From the IMG/VR virus record IMGVR_UViG_3300048011_000525, positions 51,583 through 115,582 of that record: DNA of 64,000 nt; one strand, given 5' to 3'. The notes under the pieces are model-generated. The model had not been told where the DNA came from. It made no database searches and was given only the letters and a program-made list of their open reading frames with translations. The position numbers and the translations under genes were made by a program. The DNA is from a virus. Positions 10,039 to 26,600 of this stretch are shown here, one piece after another (positions within the stretch are counted from its first letter, which is position 1; each line of letters begins with the position of its first letter).

Positions 10039-10044
10039 ATGAGT

Positions 10045-11181
10045 ATGAAAGTTTTAGTTCTCGGTGACATCATTGTCGACAAATATATCTACGGTACATC
10101 AACACGCATTAGCCCAGAAGCGCCAGTGCCTGTTGTAACATATCAGCGTGAAGTTGAGACTGTAGGTGGTGCCGGACTTGTTTACGAAAATCTTAAAAGT
10201 CTAGGTGTAGATGTTACTCTGTTTGTAATGCCTGGAAAGCCAAGCGTTAAAACACGAGTTATATGTGACGGACATTATATAACACGCATCGACAACGATG
10301 TACACACAAACGGATTAGATGTATTAAAACGTGTATTAACTACCGACTTTACAGTATATGATTATGTTATTTTAAGTGATTACAATAAAGGTACACTAGA
10401 CGAAAGTATTGAAATAATCAAACACATTAATACATACGGATGTCGTATTATTGTTGATCCTAAAGAACACTCTAGTCACTATGAAGGTGCTTGGTTAGTA
10501 AAACCCAACGAAAAAGAATTTCAAGAATACTTTATCAACTGGCACGGTAACATTATTACAACTAGAGCAGATAAAAGCGTTGTTGCTAACATTGACAATG
10601 AAGTATTTGAAATAGATGTGGAGCCGGTTGAGGTATCGGATGTAACAGGAGCAGGAGATTGTTTCTTAGCAGCATTTGTATATGGTCTTACTAAAGGTTA
10701 TGATTACAAACATGCAATTGAACTAGCAGTTAAAGGCTCTACAGAAAGTGTTAAGCATGTAGGCACATACACGCTACAACAGCGCGATTTAGAAGAAAGA
10801 GTAGTCTTTACTAATGGAGTATTTGATATACTGCACAAGGGTCATTTTGAGCTCTTAAAAGAAGCTAAATTTCTCGGTGCTAAACTAATTGTAGGTATTA
10901 ATAGCGATGCTAGTGTAAAACGTCTTAAAGGCGAAACACGCCCAATTAATAATCAAATGAAGCGTATTAGTCAGTTAGAAATTTTACCGTGGGTAGATCA
11001 AGTAGTTGTATTTGATGAAGATACCCCATACGAATTAATTAAAAAAATTAAGCCGCATGTAATAGTTAAGGGCGGCGACTATACAGTAGAAACCGTAGTA
11101 GGACACGATTTAGCCGAGGTGCATCTTGTACCTACTGTTGAAGGCTACAGCACTACAGAAATTATAGAGGCAAGCAAATGA
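10045..11181 (+). CDS. hldE: Compact bifunctional heptose-7-P kinase / heptose-1-P adenylyltransferase
   Basis: HldE phosphorylates D-glycero-D-manno-heptose 7-phosphate at C1 and later transfers AMP to make ADP-heptose. The N-terminal ribokinase-type domain (residues 1 to about 245) shows VLGDIIVDKYIYG, RISPEAPVPVV, VGGAGLVYENL, SDYNKGTL, DPKE, LVKPNEKEF and the catalytic DVTGAGD. The C-terminal nucleotidyltransferase (about 250-378) shows FTNGVFDILHKGHFELL, INSDASVKRLKG and the closing YSTTEII. Both active sites look intact. At 378 aa it is shorter than E. coli HldE (477 aa), mostly in the kinase domain. The ATG at 10045 is preferred over the in-frame one at 10039 because it sits at the predicted transcription start. 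The stop overlaps hldD (ATGA). Confidence 0.88.
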   Translation: MKVLVLGDIIVDKYIYGTSTRISPEAPVPVVTYQREVETVGGAGLVYENLKSLGVDVTLFVMPGKPSVKTRVICDGHYITRIDNDVHTNGLDVLKRVLTTDFTVYDYVILSDYNKGTLDESIEIIKHINTYGCRIIVDPKEHSSHYEGAWLVKPNEKEFQEYFINWHGNIITTRADKSVVANIDNEVFEIDVEPVEVSDVTGAGDCFLAAFVYGLTKGYDYKHAIELAVKGSTESVKHVGTYTLQQRDLEERVVFTNGVFDILHKGHFELLKEAKFLGAKLIVGINSDASVKRLKGETRPINNQMKRISQLEILPWVDQVVVFDEDTPYELIKKIKPHVIVKGGDYTVETVVGHDLAEVHLVPTVEGYSTTEIIEASK

Positions 11182-11996
11182 AAATTTTAATTACTGGCCA
11201 TAAAGGATTTATTGGACAAAATCTAACCCTGTTCTTACAAAACGAACACGAACTATTTGGATACGAATGGCAAGAAGATAGCTTACCAGAAGTTGAAGGT
11301 TTTGATTGGGTTATACATACTGGAGCGATTAGCAGCACTACAGAAACAGATGTAGATAAAGTAATGTTGCAAAATTACGAGTTTAGTAAATGGTTATATA
11401 ACGAATGTAATACTAAAGGTGTTAATTTGCAATATGCATCAAGTGCAAGTGTTTACGGAACAAATACAGAGTTTAGCGAAGATGCTCCTAAACAGCCACA
11501 GAGCCCTTATGCTTGGAGCAAGTATTTGTTTGATCGCTGGGTTTGGGGTTTAAGTTCTCATAATATTATTGTACAAGGTTTCCGTTACTTTAATGTATAC
11601 GGTCCATTTGAGGATCATAAAGGTAATCAGGCAAGTCCAGTTACTAAGTTTACTGAACAAGCAATTAAGACTGGTAGAATAAAACTATTTGAAAACAGTG
11701 ATAAGTACTTACGTGATTTTATATTTGTAGGCGATGTGTGCGAAGCACATAAACAATTGTTAGAAAATAAAACAGCAGGTCTGTATAATATAGGTACTGG
11801 TAACACAACTAGTTTTAAAGAAGTAGCAGAAGTAATTGCTAAAAAATATAATGCTGAAATTACAGAAATACCAATGCCAAAAAACTTAAAAGGACAATAT
11901 CAAGAATATACTTGTGCAGACACAAATAAATTAAGTACAGTAACAGATATTGATTTTGCAACAGTAAAGGAGTATGTAAATGAGTCAACCAACTAG
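11178..11996 (+). CDS. hldD: ADP-L-glycero-D-manno-heptose 6-epimerase
   Basis: This extended short-chain dehydrogenase begins with a Rossmann motif (ILITGHKGFIGQNL). It has the catalytic YAWSK (Tyr111, Lys115) with upstream serines in ASSASVYG, and the HldD-like GFRYFNVYGPFEDHKGNQASPV. HldD inverts C6 of ADP-D,D-heptose to give ADP-L,D-heptose, the donor for LPS inner-core heptosyltransferases. The 272-aa length is a little below E. coli HldD (310 aa). It overlaps hldE by 4 nt and the cupin gene by 17 nt, so the operon is tightly coupled. A related UDP-sugar epimerase is less likely given the HKGNQASPV segment and the neighbouring hldE. Confidence 0.85.
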   Translation: MKILITGHKGFIGQNLTLFLQNEHELFGYEWQEDSLPEVEGFDWVIHTGAISSTTETDVDKVMLQNYEFSKWLYNECNTKGVNLQYASSASVYGTNTEFSEDAPKQPQSPYAWSKYLFDRWVWGLSSHNIIVQGFRYFNVYGPFEDHKGNQASPVTKFTEQAIKTGRIKLFENSDKYLRDFIFVGDVCEAHKQLLENKTAGLYNIGTGNTTSFKEVAEVIAKKYNAEITEIPMPKNLKGQYQEYTCADTNKLSTVTDIDFATVKEYVNESTN

Positions 11997-12402: not shown

Positions 12403-13026
12403 ATGACATTTGAAGAAAATGTTATAGAACTTCCATTCCTGTCAGAAGACGAATGTAAAGACATAGCAGAGTGGGCATTTGATTTTGAGCAGCAGCTTAT
12501 TAATGCAGGGTATGGCGATAACAAACCTTCACCAGAGCACTTTGATAATGTAACAACTTCAAATTATCAAAACTATAACTTTTTTAATTATTTTCCAGAA
12601 TTAGCTGATAGATTAGTAGAATGTTTGTTCCACGTAAACAAAGATTTAGAGTGGCCAATTATATGTCAAGCATGGATAAACATCTATAGAAAAGGTCAAG
12701 GAATAAATTGGCATAACCATCAAGGTCGAATGGGTAAAAGTTTTAGTTGTAATGTGTTTATTGCAGGCGATACTACTCCCGGAATAACATATAAACCGTT
12801 TGGTGAGAAAGGTATGGTACGAGAAAATAAAGTAGGATATTTACACTTGTTCCCTTGTGAACTATTTCATTATGTTCCGCCTATCGAAACAGACACTCCT
12901 AGAATTACATTAGGAATGACAGTGCATAGTAGCTCGGATATAAATATTAACATTATGAACCAATTAGCATTTAATAGTAAAATGCCTCAAGATTCAGTAA
13001 TACTTACTAAGGATCATTATGAGTAA
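12403..13026 (+). CDS. 2OG-Fe(II) oxygenase-like protein, plus arm
   Basis: The 207-aa jelly-roll protein has the metal triad of 2-oxoglutarate/Fe(II) dioxygenases: His104 and His106 (NWHNHQG), then His156 (FPCELFHYVPP), with Arg167 (TPRITLGMTV) in the place of the 2OG-binding residue. Such enzymes hydroxylate or oxidise a substrate using O2 and 2-oxoglutarate. The substrate is unknown. It is the only one of the seven 2OG-like genes on the plus strand, and it follows the cupin by 3 nt, with an AGGAAAG RBS. Its last 8 nt overlap the parvulin gene. Confidence 0.72.
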   Translation: MTFEENVIELPFLSEDECKDIAEWAFDFEQQLINAGYGDNKPSPEHFDNVTTSNYQNYNFFNYFPELADRLVECLFHVNKDLEWPIICQAWINIYRKGQGINWHNHQGRMGKSFSCNVFIAGDTTPGITYKPFGEKGMVRENKVGYLHLFPCELFHYVPPIETDTPRITLGMTVHSSSDININIMNQLAFNSKMPQDSVILTKDHYE

Positions 13027-13363
13027 AGAAATTCTACCAAAAGTTAGATGTAGTCATATATTGCTAAGTTATGACAAAGCAATTGAATCAACACATACTA
13101 GAGAGTTGTATTACGCAATATGGGACGCTAAACAAATAATTGCAGAGTTAAAAGGCGGTGGAGTTTCCTGGGCATCTGCTGTTAAAGAACACAGCGCATG
13201 TCCACATAGCTGGTATAGAGATGGTGATTTAGGATGGTTTGATCTAAATGATGGAGTTGTACCGGAACTATATCTTTCAGTCAGAGCAGCGCCAAAAGAT
13301 CAATTATTAGAAGAACCGATACAAACTCCGTATGGTATTCATATCATAGTACGAACTGGTTAG
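13019..13363 (+). CDS. Parvulin-type peptidyl-prolyl cis-trans isomerase
   Basis: The 114-aa protein is a single parvulin (rotamase) domain. It shows VRCSHILLSY with His13, EHSACPHSWYRDGDLGWFD with Cys61, VVPEL in the substrate groove, and the closing PIQTPYGIHIIVRTG with His108. The two histidines and the cysteine match the parvulin active site. There is no signal peptide, so it should act in the cytoplasm, probably on folding of a phage or host protein. It is the last gene of the plus arm. Its stop codon overlaps the stop of the opposing minus operon by 4 nt (13,360-13,363). Confidence 0.88.
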   Translation: MSKEILPKVRCSHILLSYDKAIESTHTRELYYAIWDAKQIIAELKGGGVSWASAVKEHSACPHSWYRDGDLGWFDLNDGVVPELYLSVRAAPKDQLLEEPIQTPYGIHIIVRTG

Positions 13364-13705: not shown

Positions 13706-14263
13706 CTATATATTTTCTGCAAATTCTTGCAGTGAATCAAAAACGTATGTTGTACGCTTAATGCTTTTATATGTATATTTATCTAAGTCTCTTTCTGTTT
13801 GCTCTCCATAACCTGTTCTCACTAGTACAGGTCGAGCTCCTACTTTTGATGCTGCTTTCAAGTCTTTCATCTTATCACCTACATAAAAACTATTTTTCCA
13901 ATTTAAACCAGAAATCTGTTGTTGACTCATCTTAAACATACCAGTATTTGGTTTGGCATACAAATCTTTCTTATTACTGCTTTCGCTGTAATAAATCCCG
14001 TCAATATCAGTACACCCGGCTTGACCAAGTAAGTTTAACATATGTTCGTGTATATTGTCAACATCATCGGCTGTCATTATACCTTTTTCTATTCCGCCTT
14101 GATTAGTAATAATAACAATTCTGTAACCTTTTCTTCTTAGTTCTGCCATAGCTTCCAAACTGCCTGGAATAGGCTCAAAGTCCTTAGGATGCGTAACATA
14201 TGTACCTAAGTCTCTATTAATTACTCCGTCTCTGTCCAAACCTATAAAGATTTCTTTACTCAT
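13706..14263 (-). CDS. gmhB: Heptose-1,7-bisphosphate 7-phosphatase-like HAD protein
   Basis: GmhB removes the 7-phosphate from D-glycero-D-manno-heptose 1,7-bisphosphate, between the two HldE reactions. The HAD motifs are clear: Asp10/Asp12 in LDRDGVIN, ITNQGG (Thr53), KPNTGM (Lys104) and VGDKMKDLKAA (Asp130, Asp134). PGSLEAMAELRRKGYR is also typical of the family. The Cys/His zinc-binding loop of many GmhB proteins is absent: the corresponding stretch (YYSESSNKKDLYAKP) has no cysteine. A related histidinol- or sugar-phosphatase is possible, but hldE and hldD nearby favour GmhB. The start overlaps the previous gene by 8 nt. Confidence 0.78.
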   Translation of the reverse strand: MSKEIFIGLDRDGVINRDLGTYVTHPKDFEPIPGSLEAMAELRRKGYRIVIITNQGGIEKGIMTADDVDNIHEHMLNLLGQAGCTDIDGIYYSESSNKKDLYAKPNTGMFKMSQQQISGLNWKNSFYVGDKMKDLKAASKVGARPVLVRTGYGEQTERDLDKYTYKSIKRTTYVFDSLQEFAENI

Positions 14264-14837
14264 CGTATGTGTACCAGCCAGTGATAATATATTTGTAGCC
14301 TTTATAAATTGGATTACCTCTATGCGGATATATAAAGTTAGTAGGAAAAAATACTACTTTGCCTTGTTCTGGTTTAAGTTTTACACCTTGGTATAAGAAT
14401 TCAGTTTCGCCGCCTTCTTCAATATCGTTCAAGTAAAGCATATAATTAATAACTCTAGTGCTACTGCTTTGGTCAGATGCCTCTGCATGCCAAGCGTGAT
14501 AGCCTTCGTGTGGGCCTGTTCTTTGAAGGCTCATTCCTTTCGGGCTATGTTGTGCTCCGTGCTTTAACATAGAATATTTTTCAACATACTGATTTAAATA
14601 TAGATCATTAATTTTTTCATAAAAATGATCGCAAAGATTGTAGTCGTAGTGATATACTTTTTGAGTATGTGCCCAGTCAAACACAATTCGGTTATCTGTT
14701 ACAAATCCGTGTCCTCTATTATTAGGCTTAACAACATCTCTGCGAGCCATTACTTCAAAATGCTTAATAATTTCTTCGCAATACTCTGGTTCAAATGCGT
14801 TAGGATATTCTTCAATTCCTGAATAAGTGTTAGTCAT
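14256..14837 (-). CDS. Prolyl-4-hydroxylase-like 2OG-Fe(II) oxygenase
   Basis: The 193-aa protein has the P4H arrangement: His117-x-Glu119 (YHAWHAEASD), the strand VINYMLYLNDIEEGGETEF, then His172 (YPHRGNPI) and Lys182 (KGYKYIITGW), the lysine usually binding 2-oxoglutarate. Glu replaces the more common Asp in the HxD motif. Family members hydroxylate prolines in proteins or free amino acids; the substrate here is unknown. It overlaps both neighbours by a few bases and is co-translated with them. Confidence 0.82.
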   Translation of the reverse strand: MTNTYSGIEEYPNAFEPEYCEEIIKHFEVMARRDVVKPNNRGHGFVTDNRIVFDWAHTQKVYHYDYNLCDHFYEKINDLYLNQYVEKYSMLKHGAQHSPKGMSLQRTGPHEGYHAWHAEASDQSSSTRVINYMLYLNDIEEGGETEFLYQGVKLKPEQGKVVFFPTNFIYPHRGNPIYKGYKYIITGWYTYDE

Positions 14838-16782: not shown

Positions 16783-17285
16783 TATATCATTCCTTGTATA
16801 GTCGATTCTGCATTAAAAAAGAATACTTGTGTTAGCCTTCCGGTTTCTGGAGAGTTACCAAATCCCGGGACCATGCTAGAGTGATTAATATTTCCTTTGT
16901 ATAATATCAGTCTATTATAAACATTACTAATAGTTGTAATTGGATTGTTATCTTCGTCGTATAGTGCAGTACCTGAATCTAACATTGCATTAGGAGTAAG
17001 GTATAATACTCCTGCCCAGTCGCAACCGTCTTTATGAATCCAGGTCTTGGCGCCTTCGTATACTAACTGAAAACAAAAACTGTCGTACACAAATTCTTTT
17101 ACTCTTACATTTAAAATTTCAGTAATTCGTTGTTGAAAAAATTGTTGATAGTTACCGTCTGCTGCATCGCTGCGCATACCTGGATATTCGCCTTCGTGTT
17201 CGTGAAACGGTAGTTGTATAACCTGTTCTCTTACTAGATCAGGATTAGGTAGAAAGTCGTCAATTATTACAGTAGTTGTATCCAT
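16782..17285 (-). CDS. 2OG-Fe(II) oxygenase-like protein (DUF6445 type)
   Basis: 167 aa. It begins with VIIDDFLPNPDLVREQVI. The triad is His84-x-Asp86 (TWIHKDGCDWAGVLYL), then LILYKGNINHSSMVPGFG with His135, and Arg150 (GRLTQVFFFN). It is the only copy here besides 17822 with the canonical HxD. The pattern resembles a family of short 2OG-like proteins annotated DUF6445. Start and stop each share one base with a neighbour. Confidence 0.75.
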   Translation of the reverse strand: MDTTTVIIDDFLPNPDLVREQVIQLPFHEHEGEYPGMRSDAADGNYQQFFQQRITEILNVRVKEFVYDSFCFQLVYEGAKTWIHKDGCDWAGVLYLTPNAMLDSGTALYDEDNNPITTISNVYNRLILYKGNINHSSMVPGFGNSPETGRLTQVFFFNAESTIQGMI

Positions 17286-17803
17286 TACATAAAATCCATA
17301 TAAATATTTCCAGAAATAGTTGTTCCTTCATTTCCGGGCCTAACAAAGTGTTCGATAAAACTAGGAAAGAATATAATATCTCCTTTTTTGCATTCAGGTC
17401 TAAAATCTAACGGAAACTCACTTACATTTGTTCCAAATTGATTTTGTACATCTTTAAATATTGGGCTCATAAATACGGTCTTTGAAGAATCAACTGTTTC
17501 GTATATTACAAAACTCCAACTTGATCTAGGATGAATGTGAATATCTTGCCAATCGTTTTTATCGTATTTGTTCCTCCAAATCTCACCAAATCTAGGATTA
17601 TTTCCAATTAAATCTGGTCCTAAATTTTTAGAAACAACTTCAATAAGGTATTCGTAAGTGGAATCGGGTATGTTGTGTTGCTGCCCTAATGTTGAATTCG
17701 TTTCACTTAGCCATATTTTTTCATACGGTGCTTCGCCAATATCTATTTTACTTAAATCCACGCTGTCTATAAAAAACGGTACATGAAACATATTGTACTT
17801 CAT
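17285..17803 (-). CDS. 2OG-Fe(II) oxygenase-like protein
   Basis: 172 aa. The triad is His89-x-His91 (QDIHIHPRSSWSFVIY), then KKGDIIFFPSFIEHFVRPG with His152. The residue where an Arg or Lys would bind 2-oxoglutarate appears to be Thr (EGTTISGNIY), so co-substrate binding may differ. An AAGGAC RBS precedes the ATG. It is separated from the next upstream gene by 18 nt, the only real gap among the oxygenase genes of this arm. Confidence 0.68.
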   Translation of the reverse strand: MKYNMFHVPFFIDSVDLSKIDIGEAPYEKIWLSETNSTLGQQHNIPDSTYEYLIEVVSKNLGPDLIGNNPRFGEIWRNKYDKNDWQDIHIHPRSSWSFVIYETVDSSKTVFMSPIFKDVQNQFGTNVSEFPLDFRPECKKGDIIFFPSFIEHFVRPGNEGTTISGNIYMDFM

Positions 17804-17821
17804 TATTATGTCCTTTGTATA

Positions 17822-18457
17822 TTATTTAAAGGGTGTTGGCGGCAAAGGTACTGCTCGCATAGCCTTATAAACTAACGTAGCACGTAGTCCTTTATAGTTT
17901 TCATTAGGCGGAAGACCATGATGAGGAATATTTCCTTTAAACAAAAATATTCTTCCAGGTTTAGGGTAAACTTTTTCCCATTTGCCATTAAGTTTAATAA
18001 CTGTTTCGCCGGCCCACTCTTCTTTCCATTCTCGGTTTACGTAATAAATCCAACTAATACCGTTGTCGCACTGACAATCAGTATGTTCAATAGTATTGTG
18101 TATCCACTGTTGTCCATTAACAAGTATTTCACCAACTTCAAGTTCAAATGGTATTAGTTGTGCAACGGCATTGTACACCATGTTCCATGCACTATCATGT
18201 GCATTAGGACTATTAGGAGGATAAATTTGTTGCTTAAATGCAGGAACTTCTGGCCAGTTTGGATCTGCTCCTATATCGTACTTAGGGTCTTCGGGATAGT
18301 TGCTAGTATGGCCATAAGTCCAGCTATACGACTTAAATACTAAGTCATGTATATGCTCTATCATCCAGTTAGGAAAAAGATCATCAATAACAATCATTTG
18401 ATCTTTTGCTAAATCATAATCGTATAAGTTGTCTTTTATTTCGCCGTTTACAATCAT
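17822..18457 (-). CDS. 2OG-Fe(II) oxygenase-like protein
   Basis: 211 aa. The triad is His125-x-Asp127 (NTIEHTDCQCDNGISWIYYV), then KPGRIFLFKGNIPHHGLPP with His179/180, and Arg192 (GLRATLVYKA). The strand WAGETVIKLNGKWEKVYP is typical of the fold. The start overlaps the carbamoyltransferase stop by 4 nt (ATGA). Substrate unknown; the tight coupling suggests the oxygenase and carbamoyltransferase products act together. Confidence 0.78.
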   Translation of the reverse strand: MIVNGEIKDNLYDYDLAKDQMIVIDDLFPNWMIEHIHDLVFKSYSWTYGHTSNYPEDPKYDIGADPNWPEVPAFKQQIYPPNSPNAHDSAWNMVYNAVAQLIPFELEVGEILVNGQQWIHNTIEHTDCQCDNGISWIYYVNREWKEEWAGETVIKLNGKWEKVYPKPGRIFLFKGNIPHHGLPPNENYKGLRATLVYKAMRAVPLPPTPFK

Positions 18458-20274
18458 GTATTTTCAACTTTCAATATCTTTTTGTGCTCTGGCAAATATA
18501 CATACTCAATGTCGCTATTTGCAAGAGTGCGCAATGCATCGTCTAGTGTTTCAACTAATGGCTCACCGCCTAAGTTAAAACTAGTATTAAAAATAATCGG
18601 AACGCCTGTCTGATTATAGAACTCGTTAATTACTGCATAATAATTTTCATTTTGTTCTTCTTTAACTGTCTGAATACGACAAGTACCGTCTACATGGATA
18701 ATACTAGGAATCTTTTCAGCAACACCTTCTTGACAATTCATAGCATACATCATGTGTGGGGATTCTTCTAATCCTCGCATATCAAACCATTCGTGTGCGT
18801 GTTCTGCGAGAATTGATCCTGCAAACGGACGGAAGTATTCTCTACGTTTTACCTGGTTAACAAAGTCTTTTCCGTCTTCCATTGTTGGGTCAAACATCAA
18901 ACTTCTGTTACCTAATGCTCTAGGACCTGCTTCCGATCTTCCTTGAAACATTGCAACAATGTTTCGGTCTCGAATTAATGATACAACATCTTTATGATCT
19001 GCTTCACTAATAGTTGCATTATACTTTTTAGCAACTTCATTAATATCGTCAGTTGTATATTCTTTTGGCGGACCTAAATATAAACTTTCTCCAAATGGTT
19101 TAGTTTCGCTATCTCTTGACGATTGATGCCAGGCGAGCATTGCTGCTCCAAGTGCTGTGCCTGCATCGGAACTAATAGGTTCTACATATAAATTAATTCC
19201 ATACTTATTAAGCTCGTCGAGATAATGATAGTTTGCTACACAGTTAAGCCCGTATCCGCCTGACAAAACAATATTCTTTTTGCCAGTCATTTCGTGTGCT
19301 TTTAAAATTAATTTTAAAATTTGCGCTTGACTTTCTTGCTGCAACGCATATGCTAAGTCTCTTCTGTTTTCTAATTTAGTTACATCATTGAGAGATCCGT
19401 CTTCATTATGGTATTCAGCAGGGGTATACAAATACTCATAAAACCCTTCGTTAATTATAGAACTGTTTGGATATGTAGGTATTACTAAATGCCTATTGGC
19501 TACAGTCCAATCGCCGCCTGCTTCAACATACAATGGTGGAATTTTATCATTAGGTTTACCGTATGGTGAAAGTCCCATTGTTTTACCAGCTTCAATTGCC
19601 TGAAAGCCGCAATAGTTAGTTACTGCTTCGTACACTTTGGTTATGCCTGCTCCGTCGTCAATAACACACTCGTGTGTACCGTATTCGTCAAATCTATCAC
19701 TAGGCATGTCTTTAGTATATGACGATCTAAATGGACCGTTACCTCCAAGATGTTTCCACAATGTTTTTATATCAAATGGATAGTCACAATCAAATATTGT
19801 TTCTAGTTCAAATAACATTTCTGTTTTTCCTGGTTCTATTTCAGCAGGAATAAATGTGCCGGCTCCGTCTACAATAACTGCGGCTGCTGAATCAAATCCC
19901 GAACGATAAAACGCACACGCTGCATGTAGTTTGTGATGTACATGTGCTAAGTCAACTACCTGAGGGTGATTATAAATATCAATTTTAGGGCTATTATCAA
20001 TTAATCCAAGTTTCCGTGCAAGGCCAGTATACACATCGTCGCCAGTAAAGTCAACACGTCCGGCTGTTTCAGCAAGTGGTTGCGTATGTGCAATAACAAG
20101 ATAATCTAATTTATCAGTGTATTCTAAAATCTTAACCATTCCTGCAAAAGGGCCACCGTCGTATTTTTGACGACTTAGTCTTTCTTCTTCAACTGAAAAT
20201 ACAATTTCGCCGTCCTTAAGAAGACATACTGCACCGTTATGTCCTCGTGTTATTGCTGCTATCCATTTAGCCAT
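18454..20274 (-). CDS. NodU/CmcH/TobZ-family O-carbamoyltransferase
   Basis: The 606-aa protein is full length for the family and has both domains. The N-terminal ASKHA-type domain (1 to about 390) shows AITRGHNGAVCLLKDGEIVF, VEEERLSRQKYDGG, VHHKLHAACAFYRSGF, VIVDGAGT, MGLSPYGKPN and IVLSGGYGLNCVANY. The C-terminal YrdC-like domain (about 420-606) shows QGRSEAGPRALGNRSLM, RREYFRPFAGSI and FNTSFNLGGEPLV. Family members form carbamoyl-AMP from carbamoyl phosphate and ATP and pass the carbamoyl group to a hydroxyl, often on a sugar. Relatives in marine phages have been linked to carbamoylation of 5-hydroxymethylcytosine, so a sugar or a base are both possible acceptors. The ATG lies 1 nt after the GT9 stop. 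Confidence 0.9.
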   Translation of the reverse strand: MAKWIAAITRGHNGAVCLLKDGEIVFSVEEERLSRQKYDGGPFAGMVKILEYTDKLDYLVIAHTQPLAETAGRVDFTGDDVYTGLARKLGLIDNSPKIDIYNHPQVVDLAHVHHKLHAACAFYRSGFDSAAAVIVDGAGTFIPAEIEPGKTEMLFELETIFDCDYPFDIKTLWKHLGGNGPFRSSYTKDMPSDRFDEYGTHECVIDDGAGITKVYEAVTNYCGFQAIEAGKTMGLSPYGKPNDKIPPLYVEAGGDWTVANRHLVIPTYPNSSIINEGFYEYLYTPAEYHNEDGSLNDVTKLENRRDLAYALQQESQAQILKLILKAHEMTGKKNIVLSGGYGLNCVANYHYLDELNKYGINLYVEPISSDAGTALGAAMLAWHQSSRDSETKPFGESLYLGPPKEYTTDDINEVAKKYNATISEADHKDVVSLIRDRNIVAMFQGRSEAGPRALGNRSLMFDPTMEDGKDFVNQVKRREYFRPFAGSILAEHAHEWFDMRGLEESPHMMYAMNCQEGVAEKIPSIIHVDGTCRIQTVKEEQNENYYAVINEFYNQTGVPIIFNTSFNLGGEPLVETLDDALRTLANSDIEYVYLPEHKKILKVENT

Positions 20275-20275
20275 A

Positions 20276-21319
20276 TTATTTTTCTCCGATGCGTTTAATA
20301 GTAGTGTTTCCAGGAATAAGTTTAGGCTTATTTGATTTTTTAGCTTCTAAGGCTGGAGACTTTAATGGTTGAGGTTTATTTGTAGGTCCAAGACGTGTTC
20401 TTACACTTTTTAAAATACTATCAATTTGTTTTTGATCAAGTTCCATAACTTCGTCATTTAATCGATCTTGTTCTTCTTCCATCGTAATTCTAATCGGTGA
20501 ATAGACACGTTTCCCTTCGCCTACATCAATTATATCAAAGTTTGTATCATCTACATAAGAAATATTAACAGGATAAGTTGATCCAGTCACGATAGTAGCT
20601 GTCTTTCCTAGTGCTTTTACAATATGTTGACCTACACTATCACAACCTAAAAAGTGATCTGCTACGTCAATAATTCCGGCCCAAACACGCATATCTGGAA
20701 TTTCTGGCTGTGCAACTGGAAACTTTGTATTAGGATTGTCATCTACTACTACAGGATGTTCACTCATAATAATGACACCGTATTCTTTTTTAAGTTCATT
20801 AATGATATCAATGATATTATTTAATTGGAAACTTCTTGAGGTTGTGTCTACTAAAAACTCTCCAATACTTTCTACAGTCCTTCCAAAAGGCTGTACTACC
20901 AAAACTTTGTCAAATCCAGTTACTGTTTTAACTTCTTCAACAACATTAGCCGCACTTACAATTTCTTGTTTATTTAAAGCTAAAGTTGGCTTATCTAAAG
21001 ATCTTACGCCTTTATTGTTGATTTCAATATCAAACGCTTGTGACAAGCTACACTGTTGATTGTAGTATTCCCAAATTCTATAAGGTTCTGGACTTATGCA
21101 GTTTCGATCTTTAATTTTTTCTTCAAACAAACCTTTATGCCAATTATCGTATGCTCGCTTAGATAGTGTCGGATGGCCTTTAAAAAAGTCAGTTCCTCCT
21201 TCACATACAATAATAAAATCGTTATTTGGATTTTCCTTTTCAAATAATTCAAATGCAGGAATACTGGCAATTACTCTCCCTGCTCCGCCGTTAATAAAAA
21301 ATGCTGTTGATCTTGACAA
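20276..21319 (-). CDS. GT9-type (heptosyltransferase-like) glycosyltransferase
   Basis: The N-terminus (INGGAGRVIASIPAFELFEKENP; DFIIVCEGG) resembles the acceptor half of family GT9 enzymes. A C-terminal block around residues 225-262 (DVADHFLGCDSVGQHIVKAL; GKTATIVTGSTYPVN) matches the conserved GT9 nucleotide-sugar segment (in typical members D-x-G-x-x-H-x-A-A-L-G-K-P). GT9 contains ADP-heptose:LPS heptosyltransferases, which fits the ADP-heptose genes in the same island. The last 45 residues are a Pro/Lys-rich tail not expected of GT9. The start is TTG, supported by an AGGAG 9 nt upstream. It heads the minus arm, behind a sigma-70 promoter and a late promoter. Confidence 0.65.
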   Translation of the reverse strand: MSRSTAFFINGGAGRVIASIPAFELFEKENPNNDFIIVCEGGTDFFKGHPTLSKRAYDNWHKGLFEEKIKDRNCISPEPYRIWEYYNQQCSLSQAFDIEINNKGVRSLDKPTLALNKQEIVSAANVVEEVKTVTGFDKVLVVQPFGRTVESIGEFLVDTTSRSFQLNNIIDIINELKKEYGVIIMSEHPVVVDDNPNTKFPVAQPEIPDMRVWAGIIDVADHFLGCDSVGQHIVKALGKTATIVTGSTYPVNISYVDDTNFDIIDVGEGKRVYSPIRITMEEEQDRLNDEVMELDQKQIDSILKSVRTRLGPTNKPQPLKSPALEAKKSNKPKLIPGNTTIKRIGEK

Positions 21320-21442: not shown

Positions 21443-22156
21443 TTACATTACAATTATATCACCAGTTAGCGGATCTTCTTCACTTGCAGGATCAATTGGT
21501 TCCATATTATAAGCAATCCAAGCTGGTATACCTGCGTCTTGCATTGTAGCGGGCCAATCTCTTAAACGCTGTCTATAATCTAACCATTTAGCTTTTAGGT
21601 CAGTAGGCATATCGTCAACTACTTCGCTATCACTGTTGGATAGTAACTGCATTCGTTTAGCTCGTACATCATCCCAATCCGGAAGTCTGTCTCCTGACCC
21701 CATAACTGCCCAAGGTATTGTCCTTGCTTGTACTGTTATGTTGTCATCTTCGTCTACATGTATTGAGTCGGGTTCGTATACGTCAAGTGGACGTAACGGT
21801 GTTTGATACGTAAATGTATTGTGTCCTTCCATATCCATGCCGCCCGGAGGATGCGTGAAGCTAGTATAATCTTCGTCCATCTCGTCTAATATAGGACCTT
21901 TCAGTTCGCATATTAACGGATTAGATATACAATCTACTTCTACATATCTACAACCTTTCGGAACTGGTCTGCCATCTGCCTTTTCAAGCTCTGTTACAGG
22001 TCCTAAATGTTCTTTACCTGTATCGTTTTCGATAATCAAGTATAACTTATCCGGACCGTCGTATACGCAAGTTCTTGTATGACCATCAGTAAAACTGTGA
22101 TCAACCATATATTCGTTAGGTAATTTCATTGTCCATTCAAATTCTACCATTGCCAT
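21443..22156 (-). CDS. Tail-fibre assembly chaperone-like protein
   Basis: The C-terminal 75 residues contain the pattern of phage tail-assembly-chaperone domains: WDDVRAKRMQLLSNSDSEV, then VDDMPTDLKAKWLDYRQRLRD and WPATMQ. Relatives have R-x-x-R-x-x-L-L-x-x-S-D...YRQALRD. The first 160 residues (TRTCVYDGPDKLYLIIEND; RPVPKGCRYVEVDC; TFTYQTPLRPLDVY) are unrecognised and acidic. Such chaperones help fold or attach distal fibre proteins and are normally encoded right after their fibre gene. Here the upstream genes are the three Cys-rich proteins, making them the likely clients. GAAGGAG precedes the ATG, and a late promoter lies 22 nt upstream. Confidence 0.72.
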   Translation of the reverse strand: MAMVEFEWTMKLPNEYMVDHSFTDGHTRTCVYDGPDKLYLIIENDTGKEHLGPVTELEKADGRPVPKGCRYVEVDCISNPLICELKGPILDEMDEDYTSFTHPPGGMDMEGHNTFTYQTPLRPLDVYEPDSIHVDEDDNITVQARTIPWAVMGSGDRLPDWDDVRAKRMQLLSNSDSEVVDDMPTDLKAKWLDYRQRLRDWPATMQDAGIPAWIAYNMEPIDPASEEDPLTGDIIVM

Positions 22157-22189: not shown

Positions 22190-23002
22190 TTAAAAAAATG
22201 TTACTTTAACAACGCCACCGCCGCCGGTGCCACCTTGCCCGCAACAACGTCCACAATAGTTCGATGTTGCACTTTGTCCTCCTGCGCCGTAAGGAACAAT
22301 CCAACAGCCGCATCTAATCCAACAATAGTTGGAGTTTTGTTCGTACCAGTTGTCACTTAAATTTGGTGCACCTGTTGAGTGGCCGTTGTGTTTCCAACAG
22401 TGACATGCGTTACCTGGATAAAAGTATCCAGACTGTGCTTGGAAGTTACCACCGTGTGTATAACTTGCCCAATCACCGCTTGCGCTTGTTCCTACGCAGC
22501 CTGGACGCACACAGTAAGGCATAGATGAATAACACATGTCTGTCCACGAGCTATTAGTACACCCTCTTTGTCCGCCACATGCACAAAGGTTACTTAAATT
22601 ATATCCATTAACATAAGTAGTACACCCGTTACAGCCATTACACTCACGACTTAGGCATCTGTATACACCAGCTGCACATACACTGTATGTACATCCTGAA
22701 TTAGTAGTTACACTTTTTGAAGTATATGCACCGCCGCCTGCTGGGCCAGTATGTTGGCATCGTTGACAACTACATGCACCTGCACCATTGCCACCTGCGC
22801 CCCATAGTTCCCAATTTAAACGTCTAGTACAGCTAGGTACAGTCCAGTTACAACAACAACCTGAACTACATCTACAACTAATTCCGTAAAACCATTTAAC
22901 ACAAAAGTTGTCTCTTACACCGCCTGTCAAATTATTATAATCAACAACACTATCAGTTAACTGATCTGAGCGCACTTTTTTGTAATCTGTATAATTTGCC
23001 AT
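22190..23002 (-). CDS. Cys-rich, Gly-rich adhesin-like protein, copy 3
   Basis: 270 aa with 30 cysteines (about 11%). It shares its layout with the two genes upstream: an N-terminal TDYKKVRSDQL stretch, a CRCSSGCCCNWTVP cluster, RRLNWELWGAGGNGAGACSC, GPAGGGAY, YSVCAAGVYRCLSREC, YVNGYNLS, NYCWIRCGCWIVPYGAGGQS and the closing CCGQGGTGGGGVVKVTF. The Gly-rich blocks (WELWGAGGNG, GGGAY, GGTGGGGVV) resemble receptor-binding tips of phage fibres. No signal peptide or membrane segment. A role as a receptor-binding or tip protein is inferred from composition and from the adjacent fibre and chaperone genes. The middle third (about 140-215) differs most between copies, as expected for a binding surface. 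Confidence 0.75.
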   Translation of the reverse strand: MANYTDYKKVRSDQLTDSVVDYNNLTGGVRDNFCVKWFYGISCRCSSGCCCNWTVPSCTRRLNWELWGAGGNGAGACSCQRCQHTGPAGGGAYTSKSVTTNSGCTYSVCAAGVYRCLSRECNGCNGCTTYVNGYNLSNLCACGGQRGCTNSSWTDMCYSSMPYCVRPGCVGTSASGDWASYTHGGNFQAQSGYFYPGNACHCWKHNGHSTGAPNLSDNWYEQNSNYCWIRCGCWIVPYGAGGQSATSNYCGRCCGQGGTGGGGVVKVTFF

Positions 23003-24455
23003 CTTTAATCCTTAAATATATGTCACTCGTACAAGTCCGCCGCCGCCAGTGCCGCTTTGTCCGCAACAATTATTACCACAGAATGTGTTCATTGCACTTT
23101 GTCCACCACTGCCATATGGCACACTCCAGCATCCGCATTTAATCCAACACTGTCTAAGTCCTTGTGTTGATCCGCCAGCTATTCTAAATCCCTGACCTTG
23201 ATGTATTTCTTGTGGGTGACAGTGACAGTATCCTGAAGCAGTGGAGAAACCTTGTGTTGTTCCTCCGATAGCAAAGTCACTACCTGTTGTAGTTGGCGCA
23301 AGGCAATAATAGTTTGTGCCAAAACAACCTGTTGACCAAGATGTATTTGCTTCTGCTCTATGGCCTCCACAAGCACAAAAATCACTTAGGTTGTATCCGT
23401 TTACATAACTAGAGCATCCATAACACCCTACACATTCACGATTTAAACATCTGTATACTCCAGCTGCACATACAGTGTATGTACACCCGGGATTAGTTGC
23501 AACCGTCTTTTGTGCAAAGGCGCCGCCTGATGCAGCTCTAAAATGGTGACATCTCTGATTACTACATGCACCACTTCCGTTGCCTCCTGCTCCCCACAAT
23601 TCCCAAGTAAGTCTTTTTACTTGGCTAGGTACAGTCCAGTTACAACAACAACCTGCACTACATCTACACGGAACACCATAAAACCACTTAACACCAAAGT
23701 TGTTTAGTGTATTTGGATTAATCATATTATCATCTAACCCACCGTCGGGTAATTGCGATCCGTTTACTTTTTTATAACTTGAATACGTTGCCATTTAATG
23801 TTCCCTATGCAAAAGTTATCTTTACTACGCCTGGGCCACCAGTGCCGCCTTGTCCACAACAACGTCCGCAATATGATGTCATTGCGCCCTGACCGCCATG
23901 ACCTGGAGGTGCAATCCAACAACCGCAACGTATCCAACAAACGTTGTTGGCCATAGCTACGTTGCCGCCTAAGAAAGGAGCTGCTGTTGGTCTAACATAT
24001 TGATGGTGACAGTGACAGTTAAAAATTCCACTAAAGTGGCCAGCGTGGCTGCTCATTCCGAAATCTCCGTTGTTAGCAGTTGGGCCTAAACAACAAGACC
24101 AACAACTAAAACAATATTGTGTCCAGTCAGTATTGGCTCTGCCGCATCCGCCTCCAACTGCGCAGAAATCTGAAAGATTATATCCGTTTACATATGTCGA
24201 ACATCCTGTGCATCCGATACACTCGCGACTTAGGCATCTGTATACACCAGCTGCACACATTGTGTATGTACAGCCAGGGTTAGTTGAAATCATTTTAGAA
24301 TTATATGCACCGCCGCCTGCGCCTTGATAGTGATGACATCTGTTACATGAACATGCACCACTTCCGTTGCCTCCTGCTCCCCATAGTTCAAAAAACACTC
24401 GTCTAGTACATCCAGGTACAGTCCAGTTACAACAACATCCTGCACTACATCTACA
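22835..24455. repeat. Three 42-bp direct DNA repeats, one per Cys-rich gene
   Basis: Nearly identical 42-bp blocks at 22835-22876, 23637-23678 and 24414-24455 (one or two differences) encode the CRCSxGCCCNWTVP region. A second conserved block encodes the AAGVYRC region near 22650, 23435 and 24230. Spacing equals gene length, as expected for tandem duplication. Such blocks could allow recombination between copies. Confidence 0.85.
23012..23794 (-). CDS. Cys-rich, Gly-rich adhesin-like protein, copy 2
   Basis: 260 aa with 25 cysteines. It keeps the framework CRCSAGCCCNWTVP, LTWELWGAGGNGSGACSNQRC, YTVCAAGVYRC, YVNGYNLSDFCACGG, QCWIKCGCWSVPYGSGGQS and CCGQSGTGGGGLVRVT. It has lost a few cysteines present in copies 1 and 3 (for example PSQVKR instead of PSCTRR). 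The variable segment (about 145-210) contains a CHCHPQE motif. Only 9 nt separate it from copy 3. The N-terminus ATYSSYKKVNGSQLPDGGLDDN resembles fibre-tip leader segments. Confidence 0.75.
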   Translation of the reverse strand: MATYSSYKKVNGSQLPDGGLDDNMINPNTLNNFGVKWFYGVPCRCSAGCCCNWTVPSQVKRLTWELWGAGGNGSGACSNQRCHHFRAASGGAFAQKTVATNPGCTYTVCAAGVYRCLNRECVGCYGCSSYVNGYNLSDFCACGGHRAEANTSWSTGCFGTNYYCLAPTTTGSDFAIGGTTQGFSTASGYCHCHPQEIHQGQGFRIAGGSTQGLRQCWIKCGCWSVPYGSGGQSAMNTFCGNNCCGQSGTGGGGLVRVTYI

Positions 24456-24581
24456 AGCATTGCCAATTAGCCATTTAGTACATAAACGGTGTCGAGTATC
24501 AGTACCGAATTTATTTTCAGTAACTGTTCCATCGATAATTTGCGGATTGTAAATTTTCTTATAACTTGAATATGTTGCCAT
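23805..24581 (-). CDS. Cys-rich, Gly-rich adhesin-like protein, copy 1
   Basis: 258 aa with 30 cysteines; the first of the tandem trio in transcription order. It has the shared framework (ACRCSAGCCCNWTVP, ELWGAGGNGSGACSCNRC, GAGGGAYNSKM, YTMCAAGVYRCLSREC, YVNGYNLSDFC, VCWIRCGCWIAPPGHGGQG, CGRCCGQGGTGG). Its variable centre carries CFSCWSCCLGP and CHCHHQY. The Cys-x-Cys and CCC clusters could form disulfides outside the cell or bind metal. The trio lies between a 666-aa fibre protein and a fibre chaperone, so a place at the tip of the tail fibre is likely but unproven. Confidence 0.75.
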   Translation of the reverse strand: MATYSSYKKIYNPQIIDGTVTENKFGTDTRHRLCTKWLIGNACRCSAGCCCNWTVPGCTRRVFFELWGAGGNGSGACSCNRCHHYQGAGGGAYNSKMISTNPGCTYTMCAAGVYRCLSRECIGCTGCSTYVNGYNLSDFCAVGGGCGRANTDWTQYCFSCWSCCLGPTANNGDFGMSSHAGHFSGIFNCHCHHQYVRPTAAPFLGGNVAMANNVCWIRCGCWIAPPGHGGQGAMTSYCGRCCGQGGTGGPGVVKITFA

Positions 24582-24599: not shown

Positions 24600-26600
24600 T
24601 TAGATTGAGAAGATTCTCCATCCATAACTATCACTGTGCCATACAAGCTCAAATGCTGCGCCTTCGGTGTTAACGGTTAAGTTTGAAGTATCACCTTGGA
24701 TTCTTTTACTATTTCTTGCAACTGTTAGTGCATTTGAATCAAATGTTTTTCTTAAATCAAAGAATCTAATAGTGTCGCCTTTAATTAATCCTGAATTTGG
24801 TAATGTAATTGTTCTTGCTCCGCCGTTTGTATCAACAAAGTAACAGTTCCATACACTAGCTGTAATATTTGAACTTACATCACTGTACAAGAATCCTGGA
24901 CCTAATGAACGCCAAGTTGCACCATCACTAAATTCAATACAGTCAATACTATTATTGTAGCGAATATAACCGTCAACACCTGTTGGACGTTGTGCAGTTG
25001 TACCACGTGCAATACGTGTGGCACCTGTTGAGTTGTGGTTAAATCCGTTGTCAACAGTTAAGCTACCATTAACATCAACACTATCACTTGTAGCGTTACC
25101 TAGTGTAACGTTGCCATTTACAGTTAATGTACCACTAACACTTGCATTACTTGTTGCGGTTAATCCTGTAAATCTACCAGTGCTTGCAGTAGTAGCACCG
25201 ATTGACATGTTGTTAATTGAGCCGCCGCCTGCTGGTGACAATGTAACTGTACCTGATCCTGTTGGACTTAGTGTTACGTTAGCACCCGGGCTAAGTGTGA
25301 CTGTTGAGTTTGCTGTTAGTGTTGTAAATGCACCTGTGCTTCTTGATATGTTACCAATTGCGCCTTGGAAACCACCGCCTGCATAAACACGTTTAGCAAT
25401 ACTTGCGCCGCCTTCAACACGAAGTGTACCTGTATCACCAGTTGCGTCTGTTGCTTCAGTTGTAGCAGTAAAGTCTACAGTTGAGTTTGATGTAAGTGTT
25501 GTAAATGCACCTGATGAACGTGTTGAACTACCAATTGGAGTATTTTGTATTCCAGCTGCATGTAATGCGCCTGCAATACCAACGCCGCCGCTTACTACTA
25601 GTGTACCAGTAGTGGTGTTAGTTGATGCTACGTTTTTAGTAAGTGTTACATCACCATCTGATGTTAAATTAGTAAATGCACCAGTGCTTGCAGTGCCGCC
25701 GCCAATTGGGCCGTTAATTCCGCCTGCATAAATGTCGCCACTAATACCAGCACCGCCAGTTACAATAATTGTACCGCTTGTAGTACTAGTTGATGCTGCA
25801 TTGGCTGTAAATGTAGCCGAGCCACCTGCTGTTAAACTTGTAAATGCACCTGTACTTGGATTACTACTACCAATTGACATATTAGTAATTGTACCAAGTG
25901 TACTAGATGCAATTGTTAATTGTCCGCCTGCGTCAATAGTAGTATCGCCACCTGGATTAATAGTAACACTACCTGTTCCAGTTGGTGACATATTAATTGT
26001 TTGATTATTTGCTGTAAACTCTAGATTACCAGGGAATGCTGTAGGTTTTCCTGCTTCACCTAATGTAATTGTTCCTGATGCTGATGCTAGTGTTAGATCT
26101 CCTACTGGACGAAGAGTTGCCTGTGCCCCTGGCTGAATAGATACGGAAGATTGAGGGCTAATGTCAACTAAGCCTGTTCCAGTAGGTTTAATTTCTACAT
26201 TGTTGTCTAGCGGATTAAGTTCTACTTTTGCATCGGCATTTAGTACATCGTTAAATGTAACAGGAAGTTCAAATATTGTAGTACCTGCTAATGCACTTGT
26301 TAGTACATAGTTTGTGCCGTCTGATGTTAGCTGATACGTTGAGTTAGTTGGAATATCAATTGAAGTTCCAAGTGTAACGCCGTTACCAGTAATTTGTCCT
26401 GCTGCTGTTTCAATAGTAATCATATCCGCAGTAGCATTATAAAATGTTTGTCTACTACCTGGGAAAAACACCGGACTTACCATTGTTACAGTATAACCTG
26501 GTGTGCCAGTTAAACTAATAATTCCGCCTGTAAACGCATAGGTGAATTCTGTTTCGCCTGTCACTTCCAGTGTTTGTGGTGCTGTATTATAACGTGCCAT
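24600..26600 (-). CDS. Tail fibre-like virion protein
   Basis: 666 aa with low-complexity beta-repeats. About residues 140-230 carry GTGxVxISPxxxxxIxP units. Residues 230-500 carry repeats of the form ASTSTTSGTxxVxGGxGIxGxxYAGGI followed by GAFTxLTxxxxxTFT. The C-terminal 110 residues are a globular domain (WRSLGPGFLYSD; NGGARTITLPNSGL; GDTIRFFDLRKTF; FELVWHSDSYGWRIFSI) seen at the ends of fibres in marine T4-like phages. The repeats should form a trimeric beta-structured shaft. It lies directly upstream of the Cys-rich trio, which may sit at its tip. Confidence 0.75.
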   Translation of the reverse strand: MARYNTAPQTLEVTGETEFTYAFTGGIISLTGTPGYTVTMVSPVFFPGSRQTFYNATADMITIETAAGQITGNGVTLGTSIDIPTNSTYQLTSDGTNYVLTSALAGTTIFELPVTFNDVLNADAKVELNPLDNNVEIKPTGTGLVDISPQSSVSIQPGAQATLRPVGDLTLASASGTITLGEAGKPTAFPGNLEFTANNQTINMSPTGTGSVTINPGGDTTIDAGGQLTIASSTLGTITNMSIGSSNPSTGAFTSLTAGGSATFTANAASTSTTSGTIIVTGGAGISGDIYAGGINGPIGGGTASTGAFTNLTSDGDVTLTKNVASTNTTTGTLVVSGGVGIAGALHAAGIQNTPIGSSTRSSGAFTTLTSNSTVDFTATTEATDATGDTGTLRVEGGASIAKRVYAGGGFQGAIGNISRSTGAFTTLTANSTVTLSPGANVTLSPTGSGTVTLSPAGGGSINNMSIGATTASTGRFTGLTATSNASVSGTLTVNGNVTLGNATSDSVDVNGSLTVDNGFNHNSTGATRIARGTTAQRPTGVDGYIRYNNSIDCIEFSDGATWRSLGPGFLYSDVSSNITASVWNCYFVDTNGGARTITLPNSGLIKGDTIRFFDLRKTFDSNALTVARNSKRIQGDTSNLTVNTEGAAFELVWHSDSYGWRIFSI

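Follow-up and report, generated by a model that had tools for sequence, protein, structure and literature searches.

Cysteine-rich fibre-tip proteins of a phage locus as candidate acceptors of a neighbouring glycosyltransferase

Why would a phage encode three adjacent proteins in which about one residue in ten is a cysteine? The question is raised by a 64,000-nucleotide stretch of DNA from a marine phage (positions 51,583-115,582 of IMG/VR record IMGVR_UViG_3300048011_000525; hereafter the window), in which three tandem genes lie on the minus strand: slot 1 (23805..24581; 258 residues, 30 cysteines), slot 2 (23012..23794; 260 residues, 25 cysteines) and slot 3 (22190..23002; 270 residues, 30 cysteines). 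Cysteine makes up 9.6-11.6% of these proteins, compared to a phage proteome mean of about 1%. The best explanation, to which we assign a probability of roughly 55%, is that the cysteines are acceptors of a phage glycosyltransferase, probably by S-heptosylation, because, in dissimilar adhesins and hosts alike, cysteine richness follows a single transferase, and this would be the most economical account.

Three cysteine-rich paralogues with a predicted fibre-tip fold

An earlier sequence-only reading of the locus had described three tandem paralogues with 25-30 cysteines in about 260 residues, fixed blocks and a position between a fibre gene and a fibre chaperone gene, all of which was borne out. 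The CRCSxGCCCNWTVP, AAGVYRC and CWIxCGCW blocks occur in all three proteins, slots 1 and 2 share 57-59% identity with slot 3, and transcription runs from the fibre gene (24600..26600, minus strand), whose C-terminal domain is common to the upstream fibres of relatives, through the trio to a fibre-assembly chaperone gene (21443..22156, minus strand) with a Phage_tail_APC C-terminus (PF16778, E 7.1e-9). A fold search with a model of this chaperone gave no clear match. The variable centre that had been assigned to the trio required correction, as the variable parts comprise residues ~11-30 and ~150-215 and not the centre alone. All three proteins match phrog_4205 (E 1.2e-51, 9.5e-46 and 1.6e-51 for slots 1 to 3), a PHROG family that carries no functional annotation, with relatives in S-SSM7, S-SSM6a and Sf-FS3 and remote ones in P-SSM2. 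The phrog_4205 and phrog_35878 proteins of S-SSM7, Sf-FS3 and P-SSM2 share family and genomic position with the trio, occur in two or three copies together with a chaperone-like gene and are annotated merely as hypothetical or of unknown function; a published interpretation of them was not found. Between close pairs, the ratio of nonsynonymous to synonymous substitution rates (dN/dS) was 0.04-0.23 and almost all cysteines were retained, demonstrating that the trio open reading frames (ORFs) are real genes under strong purifying selection. Hypervariable positive selection was rejected for the tested pairs. In S-SSM7, the annotated ORF SSSM7_117 (NC_015287 100415-100744) overlaps the third cysteine-rich gene on the same strand and is probably spurious.

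An AF2 (AlphaFold) model of slot 1, built from 112 sequences (predicted local distance difference test, pLDDT, 85.9; predicted template modelling score, pTM, 0.81), was compared by Foldseek and VIA, and BFVD was also searched. The best match was the fibre protein gp24 of cyanophage Pam3 (Foldseek E 2.1e-7), with VIA Z 17.3 for 7ypx (220 aligned, root-mean-square deviation (rmsd) 7.4) and Z 16.1 for 7yfw (195 aligned, rmsd 3.2), followed by the Bxb1 tail tip (Z 12.3) and then by TNF-like/glycine-rich domains of ALK and LTK. The top matches in BFVD were S-CAM3 and P-SSM2 proteins as well as glycine-rich phage proteins. Structure prediction, which had been proposed as a check on the fibre-tip idea, thus returned a fold related to fibres. 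The Pfam model Gly_rich_2 (PF21722) scored 11.7 bits in slot 1, below its curated cut-off of 24.3 bits, and matched 53 of 112 relatives at E up to 1 (best 1.3e-8); PDB sequence searches with tip profiles gave no significant match. Predicted fold, genomic position and the chaperone support the assignment of the trio as fibre-tip proteins with the TNF-like plus glycine-rich fold of Pam3 gp24.

In Pam3, gp24 forms a homotrimer whose glycine-rich tip binds the receptor, and its chaperone, gp25, is of the Tfa type (PMC9608196). The predicted likeness of the trio extends over the whole length of this fold and to the order of genes, in that a Tfa-type chaperone gene comes after the tip gene. However, Pam3 has one such gene, whereas the window has three slot-conserved paralogues with 25-30 cysteines each, and cysteine goes unmentioned in the text of the Pam3 gp24 paper (PMC9608196). 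The gp38 tip of S16/PP01, a polyglycine II sandwich, similarly appears as a glycine-rich fibre-end tip with variable loops in the portion of the source considered here, which, unlike the situation in the trio, mentions no cysteine richness (PMC12892980). S16 gp38 was absent from the listed fold-search matches of the slot 1 model, and the two may still be related.

A search of IMG/VR for relatives of the trio identified 78 loci, to which the window, S-SSM7 and Sf-FS3 were added. Exactly three tip copies were present in all 79 complete loci, and a chaperone homologue followed the trio in 79 of the 79 loci with sequence at that place. Slots 1, 2 and 3 are old and non-interchangeable, because the slot label required 6 changes on a tree built from 36 diverse loci, compared to 51 in shuffles. 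Short tracts are swapped between the slots of one locus by gene conversion: exact tracts of at least 35 bp occurred in 9 of 108 within-locus slot pairs but in none of 600 between-locus pairs, and reached up to 92 bp between neighbouring slots, e.g., slots 1 and 2 of locus L027. As such conversion takes place, inter-slot co-changes of cysteines (117, 34) were dropped as candidate heterotrimer contacts, and mirror-tree correlations of 0.71-0.86, for which there was no control gene, were not used as evidence. The fixed slots are more in keeping with parts of a single complex than with alternative tips, and the suggestion that three versions give a broader host range is not favoured, since there are always three in fixed slots. 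P-SSM2 has two copies only; a 1:1:1 heterotrimer would thus apply to the present group and not as a rule. Cysteine-rich trios were also present on contigs of GTDB metagenome-assembled genomes (L173-L177) binned as Actinomycetota, Rhodobacteraceae, Flavobacteriales and Neomarinimicrobiota, and at least the shorter of these are probably mis-binned phage contigs.

Cysteine richness beside one transferase gene

Cysteine-rich proteins, some of them very different in sequence, were found at the same place in S-CAM1, S-CAM3, P-SSM2 and the single-cell phages AG-345-F15, P14 and O18. Their shared neighbour is phrog_8954 (T4-GC302), a GT9/heptosyltransferase-like protein encoded two genes downstream of the trio, at 20276..21319 (minus strand) of the window, and the proposed glycosyltransferase for cysteines. 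IMG/VR was scanned with phrog_8954 alone, the tips not being used as query, which yielded 207 distinct loci whose sequence extends 2.5 kb or more upstream, 185 of them with at least 4.5 kb. Cysteine-rich ORFs were located just upstream of the transferase gene in 176 of these 185 loci. Seven of the remaining nine had three ORFs of 250-264 residues and 8-11% cysteine 4-8 kb downstream on the other strand, and in the last two the contigs end before this downstream place, so that cysteine-rich proteins (median 10% cysteine) occurred near phrog_8954 in 183 of 185 loci overall. The 492 cysteine-rich proteins formed 37 blastp clusters, spanned 141-1156 residues with up to 145 cysteines, and in several clusters were not glycine-rich. 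Among them, the fibre proteins upstream of phrog_8954 at L434, L436, L443 and L449-L456 (659-1156 residues, 71-145 cysteines), many of which begin MAYKINGTTVVDNSRNVCACCVTSCCITAS, belong to the most cysteine-rich large proteins that we have seen.

For control genomes, an ORF was regarded as cysteine-rich at >=12 cysteines and >=5.5% cysteine, i.e., at least these values. Neither a phrog_8954 match nor such an ORF was detected in S-SM1, Syn9, S-PM2, P-SSM4, S-SM2 and HTVC008M. Within the Kyanoviridae, cysteine-rich proteins occurred in five of five isolates with the transferase versus none of six without (Fisher p 0.002). S-SM2 has the HldE adenylyltransferase domain and neither the phrog_8954 transferase nor a cysteine-rich protein, indicating that it is the transferase, and not the heptose genes, that tracks cysteine. 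A fibre head of ACG-2014a that resembles that of L434 has a single cysteine in 405 residues, and ACG-2014a is not among the phrog_8954 matches. A remote homologue of phrog_8954 occurs in two unrelated Vibrio phages, SBP1 and D505, and in Aeromonas phage HJ05; in each, the abutting ORF, which encodes a tail protein, has the top cysteine density genome-wide (76, 60 and 84 ORFs, respectively). HldE had no match in these three phages. Vibrio and Aeromonas hosts make ADP-heptose for lipopolysaccharide (LPS) themselves.

With regard to the enzyme, GT9 (PF01075, Glyco_transf_9) matched 30 of 54 phrog_8954 members at E up to 0.1 (best 6.7e-6), and the L434 transferase matched the heptosyltransferase III model at 1.9e-5. 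The C-terminal nucleotide-sugar motif D-S-x-x-x-H-x-A is kept, with D227, S228, Q231 and H232 invariant, and aligned to WaaF and WaaC. In contrast, GGAGR is invariant where GT9 has 'GD', and Arg15, found in 54 of 54 members, falls in a weak alignment on D13 of WaaC, its presumed base and the N-terminal catalytic Asp of GT9, which phrog_8954 would accordingly lack. Because Arg15 occupies the position of the catalytic Asp, phrog_8954 appears from its sequence to work like, rather than to be, a canonical GT9 enzyme. An enzyme that has lost the base would be well matched to a thiol acceptor, since thiols depend on a base less than hydroxyls do. PDB sequence searches with the transferase profiles returned nothing significant.

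A close parallel is TibC, a bacterial autotransporter heptosyltransferase (BAHT) that uses ADP-heptose as donor and is dedicated to an adhesin, with TibA and AIDA-I as hyperheptosylated autotransporters (PMC4358343). In TibC, Asp110 was identified as the base by superposition with WaaC and MurG (PMC4358343), whereas phrog_8954 has its invariant Arg at the aligned GT9 position; heptose on TibA/AIDA-I is O-linked (PMC8498110), whereas the acceptor proposed here is cysteine. Enzymatic attachment of sugar to cysteine is found in bacteria in the glycocins sublancin and pallidocin with their S-glycosyltransferases, which modify one specific cysteine on a small peptide, with glucose in pallidocin (PMC6405829). 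The present system would differ in that a GT9-like enzyme acts on 25-145 cysteines of putative virion proteins.

We propose that the three tips are subunits of one fibre tip, folded with the help of the adjacent Tfa-type chaperone, and that their cysteines, mostly in exposed loops (24 of 30 in slot 1 lie outside predicted strands of the AF2 model), serve as acceptor sites for the GT9-like enzyme. The transferase would add a sugar, most likely heptose, via sulfur before the tips leave the reducing cytoplasm. The phage would make its own ADP-heptose, since the presumed cyanobacterial host does not, by means of an HldE-like heptose-7-phosphate kinase/heptose-1-phosphate adenylyltransferase (10039..11181, plus strand; 7.4e-85), an HldD-like ADP-heptose 6-epimerase (11178..11996, plus strand; 2.1e-71) and a GmhB-like heptose-1,7-bisphosphate 7-phosphatase (13706..14263, minus strand; 3.9e-43). 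Heptose is absent from cyanobacterial LPS (PMC4515613). The attached sugar may be decorated by a linked NodU/Nol-like carbamoyltransferase (18454..20274, minus strand), and the result would be a fibre tip with a dense sugar coat.

Other readings of the cysteines

The sequence-only reading had considered disulfide-stapled or metal-binding tips plausible. Disulfides within or between subunits, formed in oxic seawater and stapling the tip loops, would agree with the approximately 20 nearly invariant cysteine columns of the trio alignment. At L071 (3960-6373), an even number of cysteines, C79, C219, C241 and C242, is replaced together by W, H, W and N in all three tips. C104 and C134 replace each other across the trio loci; in a search for disulfide partners by pairwise covariation, only the 219/241/242 set and the 104/134 swap stood out. 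However, many other single cysteines were gained and lost independently, even and odd counts showed no even bias either in the trio (16/20, 22/14 and 17/19) or in 233 non-redundant cysteine-rich proteins (111/122), and CCC runs were in excess in the wider set (240 versus 74 expected). Disulfides would also leave unexplained that cysteine richness tracks a glycosyltransferase gene. Thus, disulfides do not account for all cysteines of the trio, and we consider stapling unlikely as their general reason. Still more improbable is a tip folded by metal ions that the cysteines bind together with histidines. Slot 1 contains CHCHH and RCHH motifs and C219 changes to His in all three L071 slots, which would fit, but histidine is not elevated in the wider set (2.1%), no common metal-site motif was seen among the dissimilar cysteine-rich proteins, and neither the turnover of single cysteines nor the link to the transferase would be accounted for. 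A local disulfide or metal site at C79/C219/C241/C242 is possible.

Alternatively, the GT9-like enzyme and the heptose genes may serve to alter the host surface or to add sugars to other residues, the tips being mere co-travellers of the cassette and cysteine-rich for another reason. Sugar genes adjoining fibre genes are common in phages, and most of the cysteine-rich proteins fall into one large cluster. Yet the association extends to dissimilar proteins and to other phage groups without an HldE match, it persists where the tips lie on the opposite strand at a distance of kilobases, and S-SM2 combines HldE with no cysteine-rich protein, so that we regard this explanation as rather doubtful.

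Several observations weigh against S-glycosylation of the tips. The largest cluster holds 410 of the 492 cysteine-rich proteins, and the surveyed loci are not phylogenetically independent, many sharing ancestry, so that the association could be inherited. In SBP1, D505 and HJ05 cysteine overall amounts to no more than 2-4%. The cysteines of the wider set are not flanked by a strong sequence motif, and the joint loss at L071 suggests that some cysteines act as a set. The window transferase matched none of the GT9 models, member A5 matched WaaC weakly (E 0.0086), and no gene of the window could be assigned to GmhA. We place at a little under even odds the broader claim that a GT9-like enzyme without the usual catalytic Asp S-links heptose to tens of cysteines on whatever adhesin diverse tailed phages carry, that dissimilar adhesins became independently enriched in cysteine as acceptors, and that cyanophages import an ADP-heptose pathway that their hosts lack.

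Cassette genes and implications

The sugar cassette also encodes two 2-oxoglutarate (2OG)-Fe(II) oxygenase-like proteins at 17285..18457 and another at 14256..14837 (all minus strand), and a PpiC-type peptidyl-prolyl isomerase at 13019-13363. The gene at 17822-18457 and its relatives (denV, SSSM7_124, in S-SSM7) are named 'DNA endonuclease V' (phrog_274) by PHROG and GenBank, and Pfam assigns the window protein to the 2OG-Fe(II) oxygenases (9.6e-7); the cyanophage denV annotation is possibly mistaken. No psbA was found in the 115 kb record, which may be a fragment.

In the open-licence literature, no paper was found on cysteine-rich cyanophage fibres, and the titles and abstracts listed for cysteine heptosylation or for ADP-heptose and phage fibres contained nothing on these proteins. 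If correct, S-heptosylation would explain a set of hyper-cysteine proteins of unknown function in marine phages, and phrog_8954 as well as the puzzling heptose genes of cyanophages would gain a role. It would represent cysteine glycosylation on a scale undescribed in the literature found. Such a system would be relevant to how phages recognise their receptors at sea, and it could be a source of enzymes for protein S-glycosylation.
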